A DNA stretch of 36,269 bases. It comes from Chlorobiaceae bacterium (lineage in GTDB: Bacteria > Bacteroidota > Ignavibacteria > Ignavibacteriales > Ignavibacteriaceae). Location of the stretch: positions 1 to 36,269 of the forward strand of contig PNNF01000022.1 in NCBI GenBank assembly GCA_013824085.1, written 5' to 3'. Shown one piece after another: positions 16,067 to 20,569 of the stretch. The notes under the pieces are model-generated. The model had not been told where the DNA came from. It searched no databases and saw only the letters and a list, made by a program, of their open reading frames with translations. The position numbers and the translations under genes are program-made. How positions within the stretch are numbered: the stretch's first letter is position 1; the number at the start of each line of letters is the position of its first letter.

Positions 16067-16095
16067 TTGACTTTTAATTTAAGCTTACTTAAATT
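16067..16095 (+). promoter_or_regulatory. Promoter of the metal-uptake operon
   Basis: TTGACT at 16067-16072 and TAAATT at 16090-16095 are 17 bp apart, a good sigma-70-like spacing. The regulator ATG at 16117 is about 20 bp downstream of the -10 element. The perfect inverted repeat at 16072-16099 overlaps both elements, so a bound repressor would exclude RNA polymerase. Confidence 0.5.
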
Positions 16096-16116: not shown

Positions 16117-16788
16117 ATGGCTACCGTTTCAAAAGAAGATTATCTTAGCGTCATTTTCAAAAATCTTGACGACAAGAATGAAGTAAAAGCAAATGTTATT
16201 GCCGAGAAGCTTTCTATTTCAAATGCAGCAGTAACAGATATGTTAAAAAAATTGTCAAATGAAGATTTGGTAATTTATGAAAAGTATAAATCGATTAAGC
16301 TGACAGAGAATGGCTTTCTCTATGCAAAAAATATGGTTCGCAGACATAGAATTTGGGAGATGTTTTTGCATCAAGTCGTGGGAATTCCTTGGGACAAAGT
16401 TCACGAAGAAGCCGAAAAACTTGAGCATTCATCATCGGACTATTTAATTAACAAGATCGAAGAGATGCTTAATTTTCCTGAGTTCGATCCACACGGCGAT
16501 CCTATTCCCGCAAAAGATTTAAAATTACCTAAACAAAAAAAATCTGTAAAACTTTCTTTAATGAAAATAAATCAAAAGGGAAGAGTCGTAAGAGTGAATG
16601 ATTTTGATAATGAATTTTTAAGCTACATCTCAAAAATTGGAATTGAACTAAATGCAAAATTAAAAGTGAAAGAAATTAGAGAGTTTGATAAATCGATGCA
16701 CATTCTTGTTGGCAATAAAGACTGGAACATCAGTCAAAAAATTGCAGACAATATTTTTATTGAAATTATTGATAAAGGGAATTTGTAA
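16117..16788 (+). CDS. DtxR/MntR-family metal-dependent transcriptional regulator
   Basis: This is a 223-residue repressor that binds DNA when loaded with Mn(II) or Fe(II). It has a winged helix at about 1-65 (IAEKLSISNAAVTDMLKKL), a dimerisation/metal domain at about 66-135 and an SH3/FeoA-like domain at about 145-220. Ligand positions line up with DtxR at a constant shift of two. His77, Glu81 and His96 form the ancillary site; Glu100, Glu103 and His104 belong to the primary site. Asp8 is also present. Glu100, where DtxR has Cys102, is the arrangement seen in manganese-type MntR. FDPHGDPIP closes the domain. It is first in an operon with a metal ABC transporter and has a perfect dyad in its own promoter, so it probably autoregulates the whole unit. 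Confidence 0.92.
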   Translation: MATVSKEDYLSVIFKNLDDKNEVKANVIAEKLSISNAAVTDMLKKLSNEDLVIYEKYKSIKLTENGFLYAKNMVRRHRIWEMFLHQVVGIPWDKVHEEAEKLEHSSSDYLINKIEEMLNFPEFDPHGDPIPAKDLKLPKQKKSVKLSLMKINQKGRVVRVNDFDNEFLSYISKIGIELNAKLKVKEIREFDKSMHILVGNKDWNISQKIADNIFIEIIDKGNL

Positions 16789-16789
16789 A

Positions 16790-17698
16790 ATGAAAAAATA
16801 TTTTAGTGCAATATTATTGTTAGTGATGACTTTATTTTTTTCAAGTTGTAAAACTAAACCTGAGGAAGAAAATCAAAAACCAGTTGTAGTCTCAAGCATC
16901 ACAATCATAAACGATTTAGTGAAACAAATCGCCAAAGATAAAGTTGAAACATTTAGTATTTGCGATATTGGAATTGATCCACATTCGTATAAATCAAAAC
17001 CTGAAGATTCAAGATTGATTGCAAGAGCAGATCTCGTTTTCGTAAACGGTTTAGGGCTTGAAGGTTGGATTACTAAACTGATTGAATCAGCAGGTGGTCA
17101 GAGCATTGTCAAAACAGTATCCGATGGCGTCGATCCTTTGCGTGACCAATATGGACACGGCGATCCTGACCCACACGCTTGGTTTGATCTTATGAATGTA
17201 AAAATTTATGTCGATAATATTTTAATTGGTTTGATTGAGATTGATTCGTTAAACAAAAATTTTTATACAGAGAATGCGAAAAAGTTTAAGATAGAATTAG
17301 ACTCACTTCACAATTGGACAAAGAAAAAAATAAAATCAATTCCAGAGCCGCAGAGAGTCTTAATTACTTCTCACGATGCGTTTCGATATTTTGGGAAAGC
17401 ATACGGAATTGAAGTGCACGGAATTCAAGGAATTAGCACTGAAGCAAAAGCTCAAACAAGTGATGTAGCACGATTAGTTGACTTAATAAAAAAACAAAAT
17501 ATTCCTGCAGTTTTTATTGAGACAAGTGTTAATCCAAAAATGATTGAACAAATTGCATCTGAAACAAACGCTAAAATTGGTGGAGCACTTTTTTCTGATT
17601 CTATCGGCGAGCCAAATTCAGAAGCGGGAACATTTGTTGGTGCGTTCAAGAAAAATGTAGAAACTATTATGAACGGGTTATCAGGAAAACTGAAGTAA
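16790..17698 (+). CDS. Metal-binding lipoprotein of a Mn/Zn ABC importer (TroA/ZnuA family)
   Basis: This 302-residue cluster A-I solute-binding lipoprotein has a signal peptide ending in the lipobox FSSC, with Cys20 as the lipidated residue. Metal ligands are His65 (GIDPHSY), His129 (DPDPHAWFD), His195 (ITSHDAFRYF) and Asp270 (LFSDSIG). Three His plus one Asp is the TroA arrangement, used for Zn or Mn. Mn-specific PsaA-type proteins have Glu at the third position. There is no long His-rich loop as in ZnuA; a short GHGDPDPH lies at 122-129. The ATG is 1 nt after the regulator stop. A longer in-frame reading starting at 16685 would overlap the regulator and lose the lipoprotein signal, so it is rejected. 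Confidence 0.93.
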   Translation: MKKYFSAILLLVMTLFFSSCKTKPEEENQKPVVVSSITIINDLVKQIAKDKVETFSICDIGIDPHSYKSKPEDSRLIARADLVFVNGLGLEGWITKLIESAGGQSIVKTVSDGVDPLRDQYGHGDPDPHAWFDLMNVKIYVDNILIGLIEIDSLNKNFYTENAKKFKIELDSLHNWTKKKIKSIPEPQRVLITSHDAFRYFGKAYGIEVHGIQGISTEAKAQTSDVARLVDLIKKQNIPAVFIETSVNPKMIEQIASETNAKIGGALFSDSIGEPNSEAGTFVGAFKKNVETIMNGLSGKLK

Positions 17699-17708
17699 CA
17701 AAAAAAAC

Positions 17709-18473
17709 ATGAACAATAATTTTGCAATAGAAGTAAATAATTTAACAGTTTCTTACTCAAAGAAACCTGCATTAAAAGGGATTGACTTAAAAATTCCACA
17801 TGGAAAAATTGTTGGAATAATTGGGCCAAATGGTGCGGGCAAATCCACTCTCATTAAGGGAATGCTTGGGTTAATTCCACTTGATAGTGGCGAGATAAAA
17901 GTATTTGGAAAATCGTTGAAAGAAAATTTCCCACGCATTTCATACATTCCGCAGAGAGAATCTTTTGATTGGGACTTTCCTGTTGTAGTTCAGGATGTAG
18001 TAATGATGGGACGATATCCGCACTTAAAATTATTTCAAAAAATTTCTGATGAAGATAAAGCAAAAGTTAAAGCAGCATTACAAAAAGTTGATATGCTCGA
18101 ATATGCTGAGCGACAAATTAGATTACTCTCTGGTGGACAGCAACAAAGAATTTTCATTGCAAGAGCACTCGCACAAGAATCTGATATTTTATTTTTAGAT
18201 GAGCCGTTTGTTGGAATTGACGCAGCAACAGAGACAACAATTTTTGCAATCATGAGAAAATTAAAATCTGAAGGAAAAACAATTTTGGTTGTGCATCACG
18301 ATTTGGGAAGAGTGACTGATTATTTTGATTTGGTGATATTGATAAATCAACGTTTAATTGCTTATGGAAAAACTTCAGAAAAATTTAATCGTGATAATTT
18401 AATTAAAACTTATGGCGGAAGATTGACTATTCTCGACAAAACCGAACAACTACGATCTCAAACTATTAATTAA
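17709..18473 (+). CDS. Metal ABC transporter ATP-binding protein
   Basis: This 254-residue ATPase of the ZnuC/MntB/TroB group powers metal import. Walker A is GPNGAGKST at 39-47, the Q-loop is in SYIPQRE, the signature is LSGGQ at 141-145, Walker B is ILFLDEP at 161-167 and the H-loop is VVHHD near 198. Residues SFDWDFPV after the Q-loop are characteristic of this subfamily. It starts 10 nt after the lipoprotein gene and ends 1 nt before the permease gene, so the subunits are translationally linked. It acts at the inner membrane as a dimer with the next gene's product. Confidence 0.95.
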   Translation: MNNNFAIEVNNLTVSYSKKPALKGIDLKIPHGKIVGIIGPNGAGKSTLIKGMLGLIPLDSGEIKVFGKSLKENFPRISYIPQRESFDWDFPVVVQDVVMMGRYPHLKLFQKISDEDKAKVKAALQKVDMLEYAERQIRLLSGGQQQRIFIARALAQESDILFLDEPFVGIDAATETTIFAIMRKLKSEGKTILVVHHDLGRVTDYFDLVILINQRLIAYGKTSEKFNRDNLIKTYGGRLTILDKTEQLRSQTIN

Positions 18474-18474
18474 T

Positions 18475-19764
18475 ATGGAATTGATTTATAAAATATTTAT
18501 TGAACCTTTTCAATATGAATTTATGCAGAGAGCAATGCTGGCTTCTGTAATTGTGGGCATAACTTGTGGGCTTGTTGGGACATTCATAATGCTAAGGCGA
18601 CTCTCGTTAATTGGTGATGCACTCGCTCACGCAGTTTTGCCGGGAGTAATTATCGGATTTATTATTGCAGGCAAAGGACAACTCGCAATGTTTATTGGTG
18701 CTGTCTTTTCAGGTTTGGTTACATCTTTGTTAATTGGATTCGTAAGTCGAAATTCAAAAATAAAAGAAGACACTGCAATTGGTGTTGTCTTTACAGGATT
18801 TTTTGCACTTGGTGTTTTGATGGTCAGTCAACTAAAACATGTGCATATCGATTTGTCGAGCTATTTGTTTGGCGATATTCTTGGAGTCTCATCAGACGAT
18901 TTAGTTTTATCGGGACTAATCGCAATTCTTGTTTTTGTTACAGTAATTATTTTTTATAGACAATTGTTAGTAACATCATTTGACCCAACAATGGCAGCGG
19001 TGATGGGGCTATCTACAGGACTTGTCCATTACTTGTTGATGGGATTACTGTCGATGACAATTGTCGCTTCTCTTCAGAGTGTTGGAGTGATACTTGTAGT
19101 TGCTATGTTAATTACACCTGCAGCAACTGCATATCTTTTGACAGATCGATTGCACAAAATGTTAATCTATTCAGTAATGATCGGAATATTCACTGCTACT
19201 GTTGGGCTCTTTTTTTCTTATCATTTCAATTTTGCATCAGGCGCTTCAATGGTGATTTTCGGAATGTTGATTTTTCTTTTCACTCTAATTTTTTCTCCAA
19301 CACAAGGAATTTTAAGTCGTTACATAAAGAAAAGAAAAATTGCAGAAAAAAATCTCGCTCAGGATGCATTAAAAAATTTATTTAAGAATTGTATTGATCA
19401 TCACCAGTTAAAAATTATTAGAGAAGTTATCGATATTTCTGATCTAAAAAATTTGTTGGGTTCACGCGGAAAAAAATTTAAGAAAGCATTAGCAAATTTG
19501 AAAAAAGAAGATTTGATTTCAATTGAAGGTGATCAAATCAGAATTACTGAAAAGGGGAAATCATTTGCATTAAGATTAATTAGGTCGCATCGATTGTGGG
19601 AGACTTACTTAAATCACGAAACTAATATGAACCTTGACATCATTCACTCAAGTGCAGAAGAACTTGAACATTTATTGACGGATGAATTATTAGATGAAAT
19701 TGATTTGGAATTAGGCTTCCCAAAATTTGATCCACACGGCTCACCAATTCCACAAAAAAACTAA
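18475..19764 (+). CDS. Metal ABC transporter permease fused to a DtxR-like sensor domain
   Basis: This 429-residue protein is much longer than a normal ABC-3 permease (about 280). Residues 1-285 are the permease with eight or nine TM helices and the conserved LSLIGDALAHAVLPGV motif. After a basic linker (SRYIKKRKIAEKN), residues about 295-429 form a cytosolic DtxR-like unit: a winged helix (ISDLKNLLGSRGKKFKKALANL, then IRITEKG) and a metal/dimerisation domain. All six ligand positions of the upstream regulator recur at a constant offset of 295: His372, Glu376, His391, Glu395, Glu398 and His399. The end motif FDPHGSPIP parallels FDPHGDPIP. The N-terminal Asp8 equivalent and the SH3 domain are missing. 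Probable role: metal-sensitive gating of import. Similar fusions may exist in databases; I cannot check. Confidence 0.93.
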   Translation: MELIYKIFIEPFQYEFMQRAMLASVIVGITCGLVGTFIMLRRLSLIGDALAHAVLPGVIIGFIIAGKGQLAMFIGAVFSGLVTSLLIGFVSRNSKIKEDTAIGVVFTGFFALGVLMVSQLKHVHIDLSSYLFGDILGVSSDDLVLSGLIAILVFVTVIIFYRQLLVTSFDPTMAAVMGLSTGLVHYLLMGLLSMTIVASLQSVGVILVVAMLITPAATAYLLTDRLHKMLIYSVMIGIFTATVGLFFSYHFNFASGASMVIFGMLIFLFTLIFSPTQGILSRYIKKRKIAEKNLAQDALKNLFKNCIDHHQLKIIREVIDISDLKNLLGSRGKKFKKALANLKKEDLISIEGDQIRITEKGKSFALRLIRSHRLWETYLNHETNMNLDIIHSSAEELEHLLTDELLDEIDLELGFPKFDPHGSPIPQKN

Positions 19765-19774
19765 CGGAGGGGAA

Positions 19775-20569
19775 ATGAAACTTACTATTACGTTAATTTG
19801 CTGTTTGATTTGCTCAAGCATTTCTTTTTCACAGAAATTCACAAAAGCAATCGAAGATAATTCATTCTTAATTGAAGAAGCATACAATCAAGAAGATCGT
19901 GTTGTTCAGCATATTTTTTCAATGCAATATTTAGATGCTGAATCTAAAGATGTATATTTTGATTTCACACAAGAGTGGCCACTGTTTGGACAAACATCTC
20001 AGCTAAGTATTTCATTACCATTTACTTCACTTGTAAGCGGCACTGCAAAAGGAATTGGTGATGCTATGTTGAATTATAGATATCAGCTTTTTAATAAAGA
20101 AAATTGGGCTGCAGTCTCACCACGCTTTTCATTAATTCTTCCTACTGGAAATAGAGAAAAAGGTTTAGGAGATGGGAAATTAGGTTTTGAGATTAATCTA
20201 CCTGCGAGCAAAAGATTATCAAATGATTTTGTTGTTCATGCAAATGCGGGAGTTACATTGATTCCTAATGCTATAAAAATTTTAAATGAGGAAAAACTTT
20301 TTTCACAGTATCATGTTGGCGGCAGTTTGATTTATCTCTATAGTTATAATTTAAATTTTATGATTGAGTTTCTAAATTCTTTTACAACTGAATATGATAT
20401 TTTAGGTGAAAGCAATTTAGCATCAGAGACAATTTTAAGTCCCGGTTTTCGTTTAGCAATTGATTTAGGGAATTTGCAAATTGTACCGGGTTTTGCATTT
20501 CCAATAAATTTATCAGATGAAAATAGTATTTCATATTTCGGTTATTTATCATTTGAACATCCATTTTAA
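19775..20569 (+). CDS. Outer-membrane beta-barrel protein, possible metal channel
   Basis: This 264-residue protein has a signal peptide (KLTITLICCLICSSISFSQ). Alternating amphipathic strands with glycine-rich turns follow, ending in the aromatic terminus SFEHPF typical of outer-membrane barrels. The motif GIGDAMLNYRYQLF followed by PRFSLILPTGNREKGLGDG is typical of the MetA/phenol-degradation transporter-like barrel family (Phenol_MetA_deg). The start is set by a strong GGAGGGG at 19766-19772, five bases before ATG 19775. A longer reading from 19727 would run through the end of the permease gene. It is the last gene of the metal operon, so passage of Mn/Zn or a metal chelate through the outer membrane is a reasonable guess. 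Confidence 0.8.
   Translation: MKLTITLICCLICSSISFSQKFTKAIEDNSFLIEEAYNQEDRVVQHIFSMQYLDAESKDVYFDFTQEWPLFGQTSQLSISLPFTSLVSGTAKGIGDAMLNYRYQLFNKENWAAVSPRFSLILPTGNREKGLGDGKLGFEINLPASKRLSNDFVVHANAGVTLIPNAIKILNEEKLFSQYHVGGSLIYLYSYNLNFMIEFLNSFTTEYDILGESNLASETILSPGFRLAIDLGNLQIVPGFAFPINLSDENSISYFGYLSFEHPF

Follow-up and report, generated by a model that had tools for sequence, protein, structure and literature searches.

The closest described relative of the protein analysed here is YtgCR (CT069) of Chlamydia trachomatis, in which a metal ABC permease is extended at its C-terminus by a DtxR-like domain that keeps its metal residues; for this protein, cleavage to yield an iron-dependent repressor and orthologous fusions in 11 phyla have been reported (PMC5599777). 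The cleaved product is described as repressing via DNA (PMC5599777; PMC7755916), YtgC as likely pairing with a second permease, YtgD, and YtgR as the only identified iron-dependent regulator (PMC5599777, PMC6504234). From the Chlamydia case it has been suggested that the permease-repressor fusion may be a transcriptional mechanism throughout bacteria (PMC5599777). No other characterised permease-DtxR fusion was found in the open-access PMC literature. In MetNI and ModBC, according to a review (PMC10710835), transport stops when added domains bind the cytosolic substrate.

The window (the whole stretch of 36,269 nucleotides that was analysed) contains a regulator, a lipoprotein, an ATPase and a permease-DtxR fusion separated by intergenic gaps of 1, 10 and 1 bp (Table 1). 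Permease-DtxR fusions as a type are already published, and the window holds a different form, with a single permease and, within one operon, a full stand-alone regulator and its candidate operator. The survey suggested by the initial annotation of this DNA found the fusion in many genomes, and the novelty of the type had to be given up in view of the characterised YtgCR (PMC5599777). The domain content agrees with the published description of YtgCR, but one permease stands in place of YtgC and YtgD, and a free regulator (16117-16788) is present where YtgR is described as the sole one. No second, YtgD-like permease gene was detected among the operon ORFs (16117-20569); the matches listed for the host genome (G000, 2.65 Mb, 98% complete) at E<=1e-10 are the fusion and the regulator, with no second permease among them, and the two PF02742 proteins of this genome both lie inside this operon. 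The likeness to MetNI and ModBC would be one of logic, cytosolic substrate on an added domain halting transport, whereas their domain is on the ATPase and has other folds and that of the window is on the permease and derived from DtxR. The 254-aa ATPase of the window has Pfam matches of ABC_tran and P-loop type only, with no regulatory domain of the MetNI/ModBC kind at its C-terminus, and the added domain sits on the permease instead.

Table 1. Features of the metal-importer operon and of the fusion protein in the window
Feature	Position	Strand	Basis
Candidate operator (for the stand-alone regulator): palindrome TTTAAGCTTACTTAAA, which forms the core of a perfect 12+4+12 inverted repeat	16078..16093	+	
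Stand-alone MntR/DtxR-type regulator, 223 aa (HTH, metal domain, FeoA/SH3)	16117..16788	+	Pfam PF01325, PF02742, PF04023
Periplasmic metal-binding lipoprotein (ZnuA/PsaA family), 302 aa	16790..17698	+	PF01297, 276.6 bits
Metal-importer ABC ATPase, 254 aa	17709..18473	+	PF00005; top NCBIfam model by E-value is Mn/Fe ABC transporter ATPase, under cut-off
Permease-DtxR fusion protein, 429 aa	18475..19764	+	ORF, Pfam, genome recurrence, AF2
ABC-3 permease domain, residues 13-273	18511..19293	+	PF00950, 271 bits; PsaBC 7kyp Z 34.1 over residues 4-282
Predicted single helix, residues 279-306, from last membrane helix to DtxR helix 1, bearing Asp297 (codon 19363-19365)	19309..19392	+	AF2
Diverged winged-helix half, residues 297-357	19363..19545	+	No PF01325 match; DSSP helices and strands
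Metal-binding/dimerisation half, residues 358-427, with His372, Glu376, His391, Glu395, Glu398 and His399	19546..19755	+	PF02742

Past the permease by 10 bp, and with GGAGG ahead of its ATG, 19775-20569 encodes a 264-aa, probably secreted protein that has no Pfam match and is perhaps an outer-membrane barrel. The genes downstream of the fusion in the genomes G080 and G393 are of other kinds, and in G393 an Nramp-type transporter gene lies directly 3' of the fused permease (L047:2819-4189). At L101:2035-3915 and L116:689-2452 the binding protein and the importer ATPase are encoded in one frame (626 and 587 aa, respectively).

That the permease carries its own DtxR-type metal domain was confirmed by profile search. 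The full-length PF00950 match and the PsaBC fold place the membrane part among the ABC-3 (cluster A-I metal importer) permeases; it superposes on Streptococcus pneumoniae PsaBC at 43% identity, and the tail is what distinguishes it from the PsaBC permease chains, which have 282-290 residues and end without one. Fe_dep_repr_C was matched with 84.4 bits against a cut-off of 27, which answers the search for a DtxR domain after residue 290, and the ligand columns shared by tail and regulator assign this part to the metal domain of DtxR/MntR. The tail lacks a Pfam match to the PF01325 DNA-binding domain and also, as had been claimed, the SH3/FeoA domain, and it differs from the DtxR/MntR/IdeR regulators in these respects and in its fusion to a membrane protein. 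Regulator residues His77, Glu81, His96, Glu100, Glu103 and His104 correspond to 372, 376, 391, 395, 398 and 399, all at an offset of 295, so the statement that no insertion or deletion separates the two proteins holds for the metal half; it fails for the HTH half. For this reason, a fixed +295 offset being used where the HTH half has indels, the equivalent of Asp8 was overlooked and taken as lost, which is wrong, and regulator Asp8 aligns with permease Asp297 in gapped pairwise and in 142-row MAFFT alignments. By alignment, then, the tail has a complete ligand set. Among 31 DtxR/IdeR rows of the AF2-to-PDB alignments, judged by end points only, 23 start at the offset that places Asp297 on DtxR Met10, seven start two residues off and one starts one off; in the PDB sequence search the best matches stop short of the helix that bears Asp297. 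The primary-site set of Asp, Glu, Glu and His is the Mn(II)-type set of Bacillus subtilis MntR, and from this resemblance only we infer that Mn would be the likeliest metal for the tail.

An AF2 model, obtained from 48 sequences as a monomer without metal, has a mean pLDDT of 93.9 and a pTM of 0.86, with block pLDDT of 95-96 for residues 281-300 and 88 for 301-310. In this model the tail keeps the winged-helix fold, and residues 289-429 superpose on the two-domain cores of DtxR-family proteins (8pw0, Z 17.5, 132 residues, rmsd 2.1; IdeR; DtxR). The claim of a retained winged helix therefore stands for the predicted fold, and falls short for the PF01325 profile. The predicted continuous helix 279-306 would still leave proteolysis possible.

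The fusion recurs at 69% identity in G080 and is present in other genomes, so that it is not an assembly artefact. Full-length fusions were detected in two of the 116 sampled genomes of the order (G000 and G080), at least 26 matches reaching residue 426 or beyond were obtained from 395 sampled genomes of the phylum, and a fused permease was present in 49 loci among the best 80 of 575 matches on GTDB species contigs. These 49 loci come from Ignavibacteria, Saprospiraceae, other Bacteroidota, Balneolota, Planctomycetota, Verrucomicrobiota, Latescibacterota, Sumerlaeota and Omnitrophota, and among permeases the nearest named relative is L076 (label: Ignavibacteria). Among viral contigs, 31 pattern matches included no relative. 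A quick tree of 155 permease cores placed all 102 tailed ones within one starred set of 126, and the label tailed or untailed required six changes on it, four of them forced by starred branches; a single ancient fusion, lost later in places, is possible though unproven. In some relatives the permeases are plain or carry tails with a wHTH only.

A total of 80 fused operons were compared with respect to the number of permeases and the ligands of the tail. Residue 297 follows operon type, a pattern that is mostly one of a few clades and not of independent events, the first-permease type being essentially one clade on the quick permease tree. One permease was found in the fetched flank of 37 operons, among which 32 (all with 1 kb or more of downstream sequence, one record being present twice) have Asp at 297 together with a complete D-H-E-H-E/D-E-H set, and five have Asn; a second permease lies 2-3 kb beyond in three of these five and on another contig in a fourth. 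The completeness of the ligands, like the pattern at 297, comes from a few clades. In 21 operons a tailed permease is followed by a plain one, and 297 is Asn in 16, His in five and Asp in none. The window, with Asp297, thereby differs from the relatives that have one tailed and one plain permease; YtgCR was compared by its published description. The remaining 22 operons have two tailed permeases, and in six of them the tails are without the metal half. Where both tails have a metal domain (16 operons), 297 is H, N, R or K in all 16 first tails and Asp in 14 of the second ones, at 391 the first tail has Asp and the second His in 15 of 16, and seven of the 16 second tails have His, Met, Gly or Ser at 395; most ligands are lost in two first tails. 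Tandem tailed permeases with unlike ligand sets were recorded at L106, L107, L117, L120, L121, L124, L126-L128, L133-L135, L138, L144, L146 and L153, and tandem ABC-3 permeases of about 363-387 aa whose tails are a winged-helix-like stretch only, both without the metal half, at L069-L071 and L073-L075 (e.g. L071:1486-3707). Tails of the window's class (one permease in the flank and Asp at 297) and those accompanied by a plain permease have the ligands other than 297 unchanged or conservatively changed across several phyla. Such a match between ligand set and operon type might be one expectation if the tails act within an assembled pair of permeases.

The tail is homologous to the regulator of the operon, from which it is separated by two intervening genes and which the initial annotation had placed two genes upstream and described as repeated in the tail. 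Their local alignment score of 223 exceeds the maximum of 70 in 2000 shuffles, so the likeness is not due to chance. A recent copying of this regulator into the permease was rejected, fused tails and stand-alone regulators being separated in the tail tree. The F, R and T groups of this tree, which omits 27 fused tails lacking the HEH..EH pattern, are separate, R and T starred at 98 and the F edge weak (26).

The two halves of the tail have fared differently. PF02742 was matched by 31 of 31 tails of the window's class (the Portibacter record, present twice as L049 and L087, was counted twice in the 80-operon tally and scanned once, L087 being omitted) and by 30 of 30 stand-alone regulators, these comprising that of the window, 11 taken by place and 18 of 19 non-permease phmmer frames, an 88-aa fragment being dropped. 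PF01325, in contrast, was matched at E<=0.01 by all 30 regulators and by three of the 31 tails, as well as by three of 26 tails with N or H at 297. Recognition-helix position 38 is A, S or T in 30 of 30 regulators vs three of 31 tails, and position 40 is T or S in 29 of 30 vs two of 31. Mean pairwise identities of the HTH and metal halves were 0.23 and 0.56 in the 31 tails, 0.35 and 0.47 in the 30 regulators, and 0.25 and 0.53 in 29 tails, namely all those with N or H at 297 and His at 391, three of which come from two-tailed operons. Between the window and G080 the regulators are 75% (HTH) and 86% (metal) identical and the tails 36% and 59% in the corresponding parts, indicating that the whole tail evolves faster than the regulator and its HTH part most. 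On these sequence comparisons, the DNA-binding half of the tail is degenerate relative to the metal half, which is kept. Such decay at the level of a Pfam profile leaves DNA binding possible, since both cleavage and repression through DNA have been reported for YtgCR. A FeoA domain is present in 15 of the 31 tails scanned, and fusions of about 490-520 aa, mainly from Saprospiraceae and often with SH3/FeoA after the metal half, were recorded at L049-L051, at many of L077-L096 and at L141.

Fused and stand-alone PF02742 proteins of 75 fusion genomes were sorted by open-frame length (360 aa). A separate PF02742 frame of less than 360 aa is present in 67 of the 75, two of which are unsure (G486, a fragment at a contig end, and G493, a 328-aa frame), and lies within 8 kb of the fusion in 34; in the other 33 of the 67 genomes with both proteins there is none within 8 kb on the same contig. 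Regulator and fusion share an operon in the window, G080, L076 and L078. Eight genomes, some perhaps incomplete, have no PF02742 protein besides the fused ones (G298, G313, G404, G477, G485, G503, G505 and G510). Six tails, one each from six of these eight (those of G313 and G404 were omitted, and for the two-tailed L127 and L138 the second tail only was used), gave no PF01325 match at E<=0.01, two of them scoring at 0.011-0.012.

The palindrome TTTAAGCTTACTTAAA starts 39 bp upstream of the start codon of the window's regulator and ends 23 bp before its ATG. It is weak by count, one being contained in seven of 100 shuffles of the 36-kb window, and the presence of just one exact match genome-wide is within chance expectation and hence no evidence. 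The position is more telling: the window and five of nine relatives (L033, L034, L036, L040 and L041) have TTTAAGNNNNCTTAAA, with 0-1 mismatches, beginning 37-42 bp ahead of the regulator's start codon, and in a resampling control only 0-3 of 400 did as well for each of the five. In L037 the motif lies further upstream (6/400 resamples), and in L045, L076 and L078 the TTTAAGNNNNCTTAAA motif upstream of the regulator is no better than chance. Because its position recurs in these five of nine relatives, the palindrome fits the role of a candidate operator of the stand-alone regulator. No further regulon targets are claimed, sites with at most one mismatch numbering 44 genome-wide (the exact one included) vs 71 for the reversed control.

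We propose that the fusion may be the membrane subunit of an Mn(II)- or Fe(II)-type ABC importer with a captive DtxR/MntR metal sensor that gates transport, a reading that we hold to have about an even chance of being right. With a single permease gene, the importer would be a permease homodimer carrying two tails. High cytosolic metal would fill the primary site (Asp297, Glu395, Glu398 and His399) and the ancillary site (His372, Glu376 and His391), upon which the metal-filled tails would close on each other, helix 279-306 would relay their pairing to the membrane domain, and the transporter would be held in a non-transporting state, that is, under feedback trans-inhibition. The stand-alone regulator would add a slower transcriptional response through the palindrome at 16078-16093. 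Such a metal gate is favoured because the HTH half is degenerate and the metal half conserved, the junction is predicted to be helical, and a separate regulator is present in the operon. The transporter-intrinsic gate put forward at the outset is thus favoured by the comparative evidence and stays a proposal. Its particular form, two tails locking a permease dimer, suits the single-permease operon of the window, and closure of two tails is not general, because 21 of the 80 operons pair a tailed with a plain permease and six have tails without the metal half.

The main rival is that the tail, cleaved off or bound to the membrane, is a metal-dependent repressor of its own operon, as in Chlamydia, where YtgCR species of 49 and 28 kDa, promoter binding and repression in Escherichia coli are described along with the reported spread of such fusions over many phyla (PMC5599777). 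The eight of 75 genomes without a PF02742 protein beyond the fused ones and the winged-helix fold kept in the AF2 model agree with a repressor; we nevertheless regard it as rather unlikely for the window, where the operon has its own regulator and candidate operator and the junction is predicted as a single helix. At E<=0.01, moreover, 28 of the 31 tails in the window's class and 23 of the 26 with N or H at 297 have no PF01325 match, and none is restored in the tails of regulator-less genomes (0/6). The conserved ligands beside the exit of the importer would also suit a cytosolic domain that receives the ion there and passes it on, or that serves assembly or activity, with no inhibition; the metal-half identity of 0.56 in the window's class, above the 0.47 of stand-alone regulators, also speaks for it. 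DtxR-type sites in other proteins are known to be regulatory, and residue 297 varies with the number of permeases, hinting at a link with subunit pairing more than at plain delivery; neither argument settles the matter, and we consider such a delivery or priming role improbable.

Another candidate partner of the tail is the free regulator, which has the same dimerisation domain and shares the operon in the window, G080, L076 and L078, so that pairing at the membrane could sequester or modulate it and transport status would control transcription. Tails and regulators form separate tree groups, though, and 33 of 67 genomes with both show no regulator within 8 kb on the same contig, leaving this a slim prospect. 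Least credible to us, with a very small probability, is a functionless tail in decay. It would account for a tail identity between the window and G080 far under that of the regulators, and for relatives that are plain or wHTH-only and two-tailed operons that lost ligands, but not readily for ligands other than 297 that stay unchanged or conservative over several phyla, both in the window's class and where the tailed permease has a plain neighbour.

A parallel to the proposed metal gate occurs in feo operons of the same order. A frame of 330-392 aa matching fusion residues of about 259-427 was found, by hand count, in at least 66 of the 116 genomes, and ten feo-type loci were opened (L034:1281-3777, L041:2320-4812, L035-L040, L044 and L046), in which a membrane helix, recognized by eye, is followed by the DtxR metal half and FeoA; the four of the ten that were profile-scanned have PF02742 and one or two FeoA domains and no PF01325. 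Like the fusion, this anchored DtxR-FeoA protein has an N-terminal membrane helix, PF02742 without PF01325 and a stand-alone DtxR regulator alongside, which adjoins it in nine of ten loci (not L035). Unlike the fusion, it ends in one or two FeoA domains and is located in a feo operon, with a FeoB G-domain gene in nine of ten loci (none listed in L046; profile-confirmed for L034, G064, G023 and G060, the rest by eye), and L034 continues with a gene assigned by eye to the FeoB membrane domain. G000 and G080 (the latter 86% complete) show no anchored DtxR-FeoA protein, and the ABC fusion stands behind a related regulator instead. As recorded under G000:C12:23586-24023, one canonical-length FeoB frame (684 aa) is present elsewhere in the genome. 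Descent of the membrane helix of the feo-operon protein from the last helix of the permease was considered and is unsupported, an HMM of residues 255-290 giving E>=1 mixed with background; an HMM of 270-300 scores the feo-operon proteins better, but that span includes DtxR helix 1. A publication on Feo (PMC8749426) mentions FeoA bearing an additional domain as well as proteins with two FeoA domains, and no paper on a DtxR-FeoA membrane protein was found in the open-access PMC literature.

Taking Ignavibacteria, other Bacteroidota, Planctomycetota, Verrucomicrobiota and candidate phyla together, we tentatively suggest, as a possibility that we would not yet expect to hold, that permease-tethered DtxR domains may be mainly allosteric metal valves and not transcription factors, that the importer may read cytosolic metal through a captive DtxR dimer, whose ligand sets may have diverged when the permease gene duplicated to give a heterodimer, that YtgCR may be a special case, and that a similar principle may operate on the Feo importer in the form of the anchored DtxR-FeoA protein. 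The 67 of 75 sampled genomes that have a separate DtxR-type protein, with scanned tails mostly lacking the DNA-reading signature and keeping the metal half, bear on the transcriptional reading of these fusions, and whether tethered DtxR domains are valves or repressors has been made a testable question. If gating by the tail is true, a recycled regulator would give Mn/Fe ABC importers a rapid shut-off at the post-translational level.
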